A stretch of DNA of 64,000 bases from Butyrivibrio sp. (GTDB lineage Bacteria > Bacillota > Clostridia > Lachnospirales > Lachnospiraceae): contig JAILJR010000118.1 in assembly GCA_024694565.1 (NCBI GenBank), positions 27,491 to 91,490 on the forward strand. Reading direction: 5' to 3'. The notes under the pieces were generated by a model, which saw only the letters and a program-made list of their open reading frames with translations, was not told the DNA's origin and searched no databases. The translations under genes and the position numbers were made by a program. Every line of letters begins with the position of its first letter. The stretch's first letter is position 1. This document shows positions 4,662 through 64,000 of this stretch, in pieces.

Positions 4662-4676
4662 ATATTTGTATCCGAT

Positions 4677-4880
4677 GAGTTTCACGACAAAAGCTCGCAA
4701 GGCCGGCTCCGGCTGTGCATATTGCACAAGCGGCTGAGAGGCCCTGTGAGCTCGTCGGTACTTAGCGAGGTATTTTCGAGCTTAGTACCGCTACGAAGCG
4801 AAAGGAGCGAAAGCGTGCCCGAAGTGATTGTACAATATGTACAGCCGGAGCCGGACTGGCGGGCTTTTGTCGGGCAACTC
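4677..4880 (+). repeat. 204-bp interspersed hairpin element, copy A
   Basis: Terminal inverted arms (~53 bp: GAGTTTCACGACAAAAGCTCGCAAGGCCGGCTCCGGCTGTGCATATTGCACAA / TTGTACAATATGTACAGCCGGAGCCGGACTGGCGGGCTTTTGTCGGGCAACTC) with an inner hairpin; near-identical to 56730-56933. Confidence 0.93.
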
Positions 4881-4931
4881 TTCCGATTCCAATAAGTAAG
4901 AAATAAACCGGCGTTTAAAGAGGAGAAAATT

Positions 4932-6155
4932 ATGAATATAATAGATGGTGGTGTAACTGCTGCAAAGGGCTTTCAGGCTGCAAGCTGCGAAGCTGGGATA
5001 AAATACAGGGACAGGACGGACATGGCATTTGTATTTTCCAAGGATCCATGTGTCTGCGCCGGGACCTTTACCTCCAATGTTGTCAAAGCGGCCTGTGTGC
5101 AGTGGGACCAAAGAATAGTTTCATCAGGCGAGCCGATGCATGCAGTTGTTATTAATTCCGGCATTGCAAACGCCTGTACAGGAAAAGAGGGCTTTGATGC
5201 CTGCAGGGCAACCGCAAAGGCAGTAGAGGAAGCGTTGAAGGTTCCGTACAGCTCTGTTGCTGTAGCATCCACAGGTGTCATTGGAATGCAGCTACCTGTT
5301 GAAAAGCTGGTAGCAGGTGTGAAAAAGATGAGTCAGAGCCTTGATGCGGGTATGGAAGCAGGTACTGCCGCATCTAAGGCCATAATGACTACCGACACTG
5401 TAAATAAAGAGGTAGCTGTGACCTTTGATATTGGCGGACATACTGTGACTCTTGGCGGAATGAGCAAGGGATCCGGGATGATTCACCCCAACATGTGCAC
5501 TATGCTTGCCTTTTTGACAACTGATCTCGATATTGAGAAGAGTCTTTTGCAAAAGGCAGTTTCAGAGGTGGTCAGGGATTCCTTCAATATGATAACTGTT
5601 GATGGTGATACCTCCACAAACGATACGCTTCTTATCATGGCCAACAAAAATGCCCAGAACCCTCCGATCAAAGAGGAGAATAGTGATTTCGAGGTCTTCA
5701 AGGAAGCACTTGCCTATGTATGCACCTATCTGGCAAAGAAAATGGCAGCTGACGGTGAGGGTGCAAGTAAACTCTTCGAGGCAAAGGTGGTCAATGCAAA
5801 GACAAAGGATGATGCCAGAACACTCTCAAGGGCAATCGTGGGCTCAAATCTCTCAAAGGCCGCAATCTTTGGCTGTGATGCCAACTTTGGAAGGTTTTTG
5901 TGTGCAATGGGATATTCCGGAGCACAATTCGACCAGGAGGACGTAGAACTCTTTTTCGAGAGTGAAAATGGCAGGCTTAAGGTATTTGACAAGGGCACGC
6001 CGATCGTCTTCGATGAGGATGAAGCACTTAGGATAATGAAAGCAGATGCAGTGACTGTTTTTGTAGATATGCACGAGGGCAGTGAAGAGGCTACTGCCTG
6101 GGGATGCGATCTGACATATGATTATGTGAAGATCAATGCTGATTACAGATCATAA
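4932..6155 (+). CDS. argJ: Bifunctional ornithine acetyltransferase / N-acetylglutamate synthase
   Basis: GGVTAAKGFQAA...KGSGMIHPNMCTMLAFLTTD cleavage-site region. Confidence 0.97.
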   Translation: MNIIDGGVTAAKGFQAASCEAGIKYRDRTDMAFVFSKDPCVCAGTFTSNVVKAACVQWDQRIVSSGEPMHAVVINSGIANACTGKEGFDACRATAKAVEEALKVPYSSVAVASTGVIGMQLPVEKLVAGVKKMSQSLDAGMEAGTAASKAIMTTDTVNKEVAVTFDIGGHTVTLGGMSKGSGMIHPNMCTMLAFLTTDLDIEKSLLQKAVSEVVRDSFNMITVDGDTSTNDTLLIMANKNAQNPPIKEENSDFEVFKEALAYVCTYLAKKMAADGEGASKLFEAKVVNAKTKDDARTLSRAIVGSNLSKAAIFGCDANFGRFLCAMGYSGAQFDQEDVELFFESENGRLKVFDKGTPIVFDEDEALRIMKADAVTVFVDMHEGSEEATAWGCDLTYDYVKINADYRS

Positions 6156-32931: not shown

Positions 32932-32960
32932 TTATTGATGTATCTCCTTTATGTATTCCA

Positions 32961-33006
32961 TGAGTCGTCCGGCAAAAGCTCGCCCGAGCTTTTGCCGGGC
33001 GACTCA
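32961..33006. repeat. 46-bp perfect-hairpin deletion derivative of the 204-bp element
   Basis: TGAGTCGTCCGGCAAAAGCTCG-CC-CGAGCTTTTGCCGGGCGACTCA; sequence corresponds to the outer arms of the 204-bp element joined directly. Confidence 0.85.
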
Positions 33007-33181
33007 TTCCATGCAAGTGTCAACGCGTTTTTTATATTTTCTCACTTTTGCTTTTGAATGTGAACCGGTCCCCGGCATTTTGTAAAACGAATTGTGACTT
33101 TTGACCTCAACATCATACTATCTATAAAAAAATCATCTGTCAGCATGCTTTGATCCGGCTGACAGATGGGGCGAAAAGTTT

Positions 33182-39047: not shown

Positions 39048-39149
39048 AGGAGCCGGGTATCGTTAACGCATTTTCTTTGGATGGTTACGGTATCAAAATC
39101 CTGAAGGAATAAGTCAGATATAAACTGACGTTTATGGAGGAGAAAGAAA

Positions 39150-40316
39150 ATGTTTTGTTCAAATTGTGGGGCTGAAGTAGGTGACAGCGCAAAATTCTGT
39201 GGAATCTGCGGAGCGCCTCAGATACAGGCGCGGTCCTATGCTCAGCAGCAGCCGTTATCGGAGGGGCGCCCGCAACAAGGCTATGGACAGCAACCGCATC
39301 AGGTAAATGCGCAGCAGCAACAGCAGCTGAATGGACAGATGCCGAATCAGATAAATGCACAGCAGCAACAGCAGATGTATGGACAGATGCCGCAGCAGCC
39401 ATACATGAATCAGCCTAAGCAGAAATCCCGCACTGATTATATCCAGATGCAGCTTCAGGCAAGATATGAGCAGCAACAGGCATATGCACAGAATAAGAAT
39501 ACTGTGAAAAAGCAGCCGTTTATAGTCAGGGCGCTTCCATATATATTGATAGTAGTACTTACACTTGGCTTTTCCATAGCGGCATTGTTTACCGAAAGCG
39601 ACAGAATGGACCTGGCGCTTGCTATTTCCTGTGTTCCCGGAATAGTTTTGCTTTTCCTTATCTACAGAATGGACAGAATCGAACCTGAACCTCTTCCTCT
39701 TATGCTGAAGCTCTTTCTAGGAGGAGGCTTTCTGGCAACATTGTCAGCAATTATTATAGAGTTTGCTGTCGGAGGCGTGATCGAATCCATATTTGAACCG
39801 AATACGATCGTCTACTGTTTTCTTGAAGCCTTCGTTGTGGCTGCACTGACTGAAGAATTATGTAAGTACGCAGTACTTAAGCTTCTTTCATGGAAGAGTC
39901 CTTCTTTCAATTTCCGTTTCGACGGGGTGGTTTACAGTACCGCTGTAGCGATTGGATTTGAGGTCATCGAAAATGTCCTTTATCTTGCAGAAAGTGCAGT
40001 TGGTACAGCACTGGCAAGAGCAGCCTTTCCCGGACACTGCGTATTTGGAATATATATGGGATATTACTATGGGCAGGCTAAAACCCTTGAGCTTGATGGC
40101 GATATTAAGGGGTCGAAGCAAATGAGGAAAAAGGGAATCATAACAGCAATACTGATTCATGGCAGCTATGACTTTATCTGCTTTTTGAGTTCAGCTGTGG
40201 ACGACGACCTTCTGCAGCTTGTGCTTGTTCTGGTACTTACTATTGTTATGGTAATTCTGAATATTACTGCATATAAGAATATCAATAAGTTCGCAAGTGA
40301 AGATTCACATGTTTAA
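39150..40316 (+). CDS. Zinc-ribbon, Gln-rich linker and PrsW-family intramembrane metalloprotease
   Basis: FCSNCGAEVGDSAKFCGICGAPQ; Q-rich linker; EAFVVAALTEELCKYAVLKLLSWKSPSFNFRFDGVVYSTAVAIGFEVIENVLYL...FPGHCVFGIYMGYYYGQAKTLE (PrsW motifs). Confidence 0.88.
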   Translation: MFCSNCGAEVGDSAKFCGICGAPQIQARSYAQQQPLSEGRPQQGYGQQPHQVNAQQQQQLNGQMPNQINAQQQQQMYGQMPQQPYMNQPKQKSRTDYIQMQLQARYEQQQAYAQNKNTVKKQPFIVRALPYILIVVLTLGFSIAALFTESDRMDLALAISCVPGIVLLFLIYRMDRIEPEPLPLMLKLFLGGGFLATLSAIIIEFAVGGVIESIFEPNTIVYCFLEAFVVAALTEELCKYAVLKLLSWKSPSFNFRFDGVVYSTAVAIGFEVIENVLYLAESAVGTALARAAFPGHCVFGIYMGYYYGQAKTLELDGDIKGSKQMRKKGIITAILIHGSYDFICFLSSAVDDDLLQLVLVLVLTIVMVILNITAYKNINKFASEDSHV

Positions 40317-43471: not shown

Positions 43472-43660
43472 AGAGTTTGAATTTGTCGATAATAAATTTA
43501 TAATAGAAATAGGATACTGGATTTTAGGAAATTCGACAGATTTTTGAATGCGTATCATAAAGCATTCAGAAAGTCACAAAATACCGAATTTTCTCATAAA
43601 TTCTGCATCCGAACGGAGTAAGTCAGATATAAACCTGTGTTTATTAAGGAGCGGTGACAT

Positions 43661-46000: not shown

Positions 46001-46195
46001 TAAGAACCAGACGTCAGGTTATCCTGGAATGCTCGACACCTCCTGTGTAATTTGAACCTACATTACTTTAAACGGGACTCCTACATTGCCTATAGGATTG
46101 TCACGCCTCCGGCCCTGCGTATACGCAGACAAGCTTTGGGAGAGGAAGGCAGGAATTTAGGTTGCGGTAACCCACCTGGCGTTAGCTAGGAGTCA
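46001..46195 (+). ncRNA. ssrS: 6S RNA (SsrS) candidate
   Basis: Promoter TTGAAA-16-TATAAT (45967-45994); ORF-free; rod-like closing pair ACGTCAGGTT/AACCCACCTGGCGT and ACTTTAAACGGGACTCCTACATTGCC central region reminiscent of clostridial 6S RNA. Confidence 0.75.
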
Positions 46196-46238
46196 AATAA
46201 CAGGAAACGGCATTTTGGGATTCATTTCAGGAAATTAA

Positions 46239-56667: not shown

Positions 56668-56729
56668 TTTTTTTATTATCTGCAAAGATATTGAGGCTCT
56701 AAGCAGTACCTTAACATCTTATATATTAT

Positions 56730-56933
56730 GAGTTGTCCGACAAAAGCTCGCAAGGCCGACTCCGGCTGTGCATATTGCACAAGCATCTGAGAGGCCCTGT
56801 GAGCTCGTCGGTACTTAGCGTGGTATTTTCGAGCTTAGTACCGCTACGAAGCGAAAGGAGCGAAAGCGTGCCCGAAGTGATTGTACAATATGCACAGCCG
56901 GGGTCGGACTGGTGAGCTTTTGTCGGGCAACTC
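56730..56933 (+). repeat. 204-bp interspersed hairpin element, copy B
   Basis: Same length and >90% identical by eye to 4677-4880; inverted arms GAGTTGTCCGACAAAAGCTCGC.../...GAGCTTTTGTCGGGCAACTC. Confidence 0.95.
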
Positions 56934-57046
56934 ATATTATTTTTGAGCGGTATACTGTATGCACACATATTTGCGGCATTTACAGTATTCGCATACGACC
57001 GGAAAAAGTCAGATATAAACTGGCATATATAGAGGAGGAGTAAAAG

Positions 57047-63193: not shown

Positions 63194-63305
63194 ATGAGCT
63201 TTTGTCGGGCAACATATGTTATGAGCTGCCCGGCAAAATCTCGCCAGTCCGGCCCCTGCTGTGCATATTGTAACATTGTGCAATAACTTCGGGCAGCTGA
63301 AGCTA
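63194..63305. repeat. Rearranged/decayed derivative of the 204-bp hairpin element
   Basis: GAGCTTTTGTCGGGCAACAT then GAGCTGCCCGGCAAAATCTCGCCAGTCCGGCCCCTGCTGTGCATATTGTAACATTGTGCAATAACTTCGGGCAGCTGAAGCT, matching outer arm and arm-to-core pieces. Confidence 0.75.
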
Positions 63306-63833: not shown

Positions 63834-64000
63834 GAGTCGCCCGACAAAAGCTCACCAGTCCGGCCCCGACTGTGCATATTGTACAATCACTTCGGGCACG
63901 CTTTCGCTCCTTTCGCTTCGTAGCGGTACTAAGCTCGAAAATACCTCGCTAAGTACCGACGAGCTCATAGGGCCTCTCAGCTGCTTGTGCAATATGCACA
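63834..64000 (-). repeat. 204-bp interspersed hairpin element, copy C (reverse orientation, truncated by window end)
   Basis: Reverse complement reads ...CGGTACTTAGCGAGGTATTTTCGAGCTTAGTACCGCTACGAAGCGAAAGGAGCGAAAGCGTGCCCGAAGTGATTGTACAATATGCACAGTCGGGGCCGGACTGGTGAGCTTTTGTCGGGCGACTC. Confidence 0.95.

Follow-up and report, generated by a model that had tools for sequence, protein, structure and literature searches.

The stretch of DNA analysed here, 64,000 nt of a Butyrivibrio sp. contig (the window), carries a 204-bp repeat that can fold on itself and whose copies differ by seemingly compensatory base changes. Because changes of this kind are the standard evidence of functional RNA structure, the locus raises the question of whether the repeat is mobile DNA, a structured RNA or an element in which pairing is maintained in some other way. 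We consider it probable that it is a palindromic element of the MITE type whose two arms are copied from each other and whose core is kept for its shape. The initial annotation had reported two copies of exactly equal length and a third in reverse orientation starting at 63834. Copies A and B are indeed of equal length, 204 nt each, with 12 differences between them (94% identity), and copy C does lie on the minus strand, truncated by the end of the window and of its contig, C168. The features are:

4670-4676: left target-site duplication of copy A, ATCCGAT, agreeing with the right copy at 6 of 7 positions
4677-4880, plus strand: copy A, full 204-bp element, intergenic, flanked by a GNAT acetyltransferase gene and argJ
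4677-4729, plus strand: left outer arm of copy A, a terminal inverted repeat that begins GAGTYGCCCGACAAAAGCTC
4725-4824, plus strand: conserved core of copy A, matched by covariance model R1 at G000:C168:32215-32314 and comprising inner P1 and hairpins P2 and P3
4756-4790, plus strand: apical hairpin P2 of copy A, with a T-T mismatch, tandem G-A (CGAG/CGAG) and a GTATTTT loop
4807-4814, plus strand: mini hairpin P3 of copy A, GC-GAAA-GC, the loop being of the GNRA type family-wide
4828-4880, plus strand: right outer arm of copy A
4881-4887: right target-site duplication of copy A, TTCCGAT
32955-32961 and 33006-33012: exact 7-bp duplication ATTCCAT around the mini-form
32962-33005: 44-bp mini-form, two 20-bp ends back to back with no interior
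56723-56729: left target-site duplication of copy B, ATATTAT, exact
56730-56933, plus strand: copy B, full 204-bp element, intergenic between a GGDEF gene and pheS
56934-56940: right target-site duplication of copy B, ATATTAT, exact
63196-63303: decayed fragments (end and half-arm) of this element, bracketed by ATGTTAT repeats
63834-64000, minus strand: copy C, incomplete
4868-4933, 39085-39150, 43594-43659 and 56980-57045: copies of leader motif AAGTCAGATATAAACYGRCGTTTATRGAGGAG

The leader motif, about 60 bp long, is found directly 5' of four start codons, those of argJ and pheS among them. The reading frame from 39150 contains a 24-bp tandem repeat (39283-39426) that encodes a glutamine-rich stretch.

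The proposal that the repeat is MITE-like is borne out by its target-site duplications, its mini-form, its copy number and its random orientation. Direct repeats of 7-8 bp, AT-rich, flank the copies with GAGTYG ends: the 7-bp duplication is exact in 7 of 25 copies, to which three 8-bp cases are added, compared with 9 of 600 controls, a background that is above zero because the targets are AT-rich. The full elements are intergenic, and their orientation relative to genes is random (27 ++ to 23 -- in the family, 11 ++ to 8 -- in the window's genome), on which grounds a cis-acting sense RNA was rejected as the identity of the full element. Coding capacity is absent from the 204/206-bp element, and the core lies within a large ORF at just one of the tested family loci. 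The repeat is a MITE-type, non-autonomous DNA transposon. No autonomous partner with GAGTYG ends was found at six DDE_Tnp_1 hits or at four mid-contig orphan ends in the window's genome, a metagenome-assembled genome (MAG) of 3.47 Mb that is 82% complete, with 100 of its 183 ends listed. That genome contains at least 41 near-full matches to the element, a lower bound obtained with 40 of 224 candidates scored, and 183 matches to the end sequence GAGTYGCCCGACAAAAGCTC, compared with 1 in the control; several of its contigs begin or finish within a copy.

As with Correia/NEMIS, ERIC and MITEAba12, the bacterial MITEs, the element is short and gene-less, has terminal inverted repeats and target-site duplications, and occupies intergenic sites in many copies. 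It differs from them in that the interior rather than the ends is conserved family-wide, that the ends and the duplication length vary between genera and within genomes, and that the arms are mirrored within each copy.

Copy A, folded as RNA, reaches -115 kcal/mol on the plus strand (z -10.4) and -102 kcal/mol on the minus strand (z -10.2), with 0 of 200 shuffles as good. The arms of ~53 bp pair almost fully, as had been described, positions 1-53 and 152-204 of the element being 87% self-complementary in A and 89% in B. The arm change that drew attention to the locus is confirmed: where A has G-C at pair 30:175, B has A-T, and an A->G substitution at 173 creates a wobble. No other pair is fully compensated among the differences between A and B, 12 in all; the rest are wobbles, mismatches and changes at unpaired positions. 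Across 25 copies in the window's genome we counted 22 double Watson-Crick arm changes versus 12.5 expected by shuffling (0 of 1000 shuffles reach 22), along with 184 one-sided or mispaired cells, of which 73 are G-T, 52 A-C and 59 other; the common arm variants lean to G-T. Arm covariation in this genome is beyond chance, yet weak. Nor is there strong concerted evolution of the arms, the signal being weak: the two arms of a copy are 86.1% identical, compared with 88.1% for left arms of different copies. The slightly closer resemblance of left arms to other left arms than to their own right arms, and the mostly one-sided arm changes, are what an ordinary MITE would give, one whose copies resemble each other through recent copying of a single master and whose arms pair because the copies are young, with no homogenisation.

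That explanation fares poorly in a Robinsoniella MAG (G061), where 316 first-look candidates were found and all 40 of those scored were confirmed. Over 37 copies, arm-to-arm identity is 95.8% within a copy, whereas between copies it is 80.4% for left-left, 81.1% for right-right and 80.7% for left-right comparisons, so that an arm's side, left or right, leaves no trace in its sequence; the cores are 98.3% identical. Length changes, internal duplications and extensions past the tip appear in mirror image on the two arms (L329, L341, L332, L350, L352 and L327). One copy, L340, has an additional outer end on one arm only, and nested insertions could explain some of the arm extensions. Elements that differ by 20% from each other and by 4% internally, with mirrored indels, are not expected of young copies of one master, nor is the presence of one core in elements that differ in their ends and duplications or the prevalence, across genera, of two-sided Watson-Crick changes. 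We therefore regard the ordinary MITE as quite improbable.

Mirrored arms also bear on the claim that preserved pairing reflects selection on RNA or cruciform structure rather than passive decay, which does not follow for the arms. Over the arms of 81 elements G-T (107) and A-C (124) mispairs are about equally frequent, and strand-specific RNA pairing of the arms was rejected on this parity. Wobbles are thus not in excess, and the mirroring of arms within a copy, indels included, points to arm-to-arm copying; the compensatory change seems better explained by such copying than by selection on RNA. For the inner core the claim stands in part, in that conservation of the structure across the family makes constraint likely, while the near absence of G-U looks DNA-like. 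Template switching between inverted repeats is a known route to arm homogenisation (PMC8604942). The quasipalindrome mutagenesis treated there shares with our elements the homogenised arms of imperfect inverted repeats; its case is one of short inverted repeats in yeast genes, and ours is a mobile element family with loops of ~100 bp.

The core, ~100 bp long, is a three-way junction formed by the outer stem P1, the hairpin P2 with its T-T mismatch, and the GNRA-type mini hairpin P3. Double changes occur at 25 of 31 pairs in a first alignment and at 29 of 31 in a second, which was gathered by the model from whole genomes and fitted to the structure; the latter contains 495 double-change cells versus 141 when shuffled, a level seen in 0 of 500 shuffles. 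A mobile structured RNA, in which a transcript of the core functions in regulation, processing or protein binding and the arms are a vehicle only, would account for this covariation. It would also suit the strong folding z-score, the conservation of unpaired positions (the T-T mismatch in 67 of 69 cases), the excess of G-T over A-C cells in the arms of the window's genome noted above, and the P3 loop, where the GNRA purine at position 3 is present in 134 of 135 cases and fits RNA better than a DNA GNNA motif. The composition of the stems speaks otherwise. Of the standard pairs, G-U accounts for 2.2% in P1, 2.4% in the basal part of P2 and 0.4% in its apical part, compared with 15.8% in 6S RNA of the same family with a structure predicted by RNAalifold, and the ratio of one-sided to two-sided changes is 4:173 in apical P2 versus 111:119 in 6S RNA. 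Random orientation to genes and the lack of a family-wide G-T excess in the arms likewise count against an RNA, as does the result of Rfam searches: at the gathering score the whole window matched 6S only, leaving the core unmatched, and with E<=1 the core was again unmatched at 5 related loci, which gave only sub-threshold microRNA-like hits. A known RNA family was rejected as the identity of the core on these results, and a mobile structured RNA appears unlikely to us. The 6S gene of the window is at 46018-46225 (plus strand), and with another at G000:C25:4239-4438 the genome appears to have two.

Between copies in the window's genome the whole apical stem of P2 is exchanged on both sides (AGCGAG/CGAGCT versus AGGCACC/GGTGCCT) while the T-T mismatch and the GTATTTT loop stay unchanged, as expected if one strand of the stem is copied from the other. 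Where they lie in a C-GA-G context, tandem sheared G-A pairs are very stable in single-stranded DNA too, as are GCGAAAGC hairpins, so the core could fold as RNA or as DNA. The apparent invariance of a GTNNTTT loop and a CTTAGCGAGG hairpin was rejected as ascertainment bias introduced by the search pattern; in an unbiased core set the apical loops are longer and different.

In the usual MITE the ends are conserved and the interior is free, the pattern that recognition by a transposase alone would produce. The pattern of the core is the opposite. It is enclosed by unrelated ends, GAGTYG with a 7-8-bp duplication, GTAACAG with 8 bp and CACGGAAATC with 9 bp, and across genera the part that is kept is the inside (inner P1, P2 and P3), the tips varying both between and within genomes. 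In the window's genome alone, related cores are found within GAGTYGCCC tips, ATGATGTYGRGGTCAAAAGTC tips (L199) and GTTACAATTCAG tips (L179, L183 and L184); L199 shares its inner arms and core with copy A but differs over the outer ~25 bp, an end swap within one genome. The other ends are associated with duplications of their own. In the Robinsoniella MAG, elements of the GTAACAG family, with ends GTAACAGTTCAG, have an exact 8-bp duplication in 11 of 26 cases versus 0 of 650 swapped controls, and a second set with CACGGAAATC ends (the CACGG family) has an exact 9-bp duplication in 2 of 6 versus 0 of 30. The ends of IS66 begin with GTAA and its duplication is 8 bp; the Robinsoniella family, with GTAA tips and an 8-bp duplication, is as an IS66-derived MITE would be, whereas the GAGTYG family of the window is different. 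GAGTYG copies often have a short repeat, GACTTTTGACCTCAACATCAT, right next to them (33084-33122 in the window, and the left flanks of L005, L010, L012, L014, L017, L021 and L022); the sequence of this repeat resembles the L199-type tips, and it may represent one-ended remnants or a preferred target.

The further suggestion that the repeat is REP-like was not supported: the genus has Y1/RAYT genes, yet no hairpin was found beside them. A REP/REPIN-like element mobilised on single-stranded hairpins by a Y1 transposase (RAYT or IS200/605-type) would be in keeping with a DNA-like hairpin that has a conserved mismatch, with the related hairpins found, like BIMEs, both alone and as tandem doublets, and with Y1 genes (PF01797) in 32 of 41 genomes of the genus. 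The hairpin is present, however, at only 2 of 30 Y1 loci, and there away from the gene ends. The window's genome has a RAYT-like Y1 protein gene (252 aa, L235:1080-2085, G000:C41) between inverted AGTCACAGGGACGGTTCTTTTGACTTATTCCTT copies, apparently a separate REP-like system, and a RAYT/REP origin was rejected given this different inverted repeat and the lack of association in the genus. Y1 transposition leaves no target-site duplication, and duplications of 7-9 bp are present here. REPINs and REP-RAYT systems (PMC3116915, PMC2817692) resemble our element in being palindromic, intergenic mobile DNA with a predicted single-stranded fold and in forming single hairpins and doublets, here of a related motif in the same genomes; they differ from it in the 7-9-bp duplications, the length of ~200 bp, the long terminal repeats and the absence of any RAYT association found. 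For the full element this origin is largely refuted, and we consider it highly improbable.

Outside the MITEs, the P2 motif is also found solitary or in tandem doublets (GAGCAGAGC-hairpin-GCGAGCCATGGGTG-hairpin; L052, L054, L059, L174, L096 and L099), frequently 3' of stop codons and with a bias to the coding strand (29 ++ to 11 -- in the named-contig set). These hairpins may be a separate BIME-like family, apparently undescribed. In L181, L195 and L205 (about 1423-1600) a full element has its P2 hairpin split by a doublet immediately after CTT, with no obvious target duplication at these three insertions.

A pattern scan of named genomes found the hairpin in many Lachnospiraceae. A covariance model of the core, based on 41 diverse cores, matched 7 of the 245 Clostridia genomes searched, all of them Lachnospiraceae, and none of the 236 outside that family; among 150 Lachnospiraceae genomes, each drawn from a different genus, 79 matched. 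Plasmid and phage collections yielded no match to the element, and a literature search on such repeats in Lachnospiraceae returned nothing relevant and no description of this one. In several genera two cores are inverted about 300-400 bp apart (L302, L307, L369/L376, L382 and L408), as if they were composite elements.

Arm copying within a palindromic MITE-type element, the reading we favour, suggests the following model. Mobility, distribution, concerted arms and the lack of wobble pairs rest on direct observation; template switching, the capture of ends and the purpose of the core are inferred. Transposases encoded at other loci would move the gene-less element in trans. During replication or transposition, while the palindrome is single-stranded, the polymerase could switch template and copy one arm from the other, thereby mirroring substitutions, indels and newly acquired outer ends. 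Such copying would make changes look compensatory and might allow the core to exchange its ends and hence its transposase. The core may be kept since its T-shaped hairpin matters at the DNA level, as a binding site for a transposase or host protein, or alternatively since it tolerates and promotes arm copying; retention of the core is the least certain step. A broader version, a Lachnospiraceae-wide superfamily in which the T-shaped core gains new ends by arm copying at the hairpin stage and is served by several unrelated transposases, is a tentative proposal and rather doubtful; its gain of ends would be akin to the regeneration of parvovirus terminal repeats. Those of AAV have a long palindromic stem, two small hairpins inside and arms that are kept identical. 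By this analogy the architecture and matching arms are the same; our elements differ in being bacterial, dispersed and flanked by target-site duplications, and show no sign of hairpin-primed replication.

Lachnospiraceae of the gut and rumen carry the repeat in great abundance, and the repeat family appears to yield strong covariation, at 25-29 of 31 pairs, through a DNA mechanism. Missing G-U intermediates offer a simple discriminator between RNA and DNA structure, which bears on automated RNA discovery. For the element itself, switching ends suggests a route by which gene-less DNA may outlast any single transposase.
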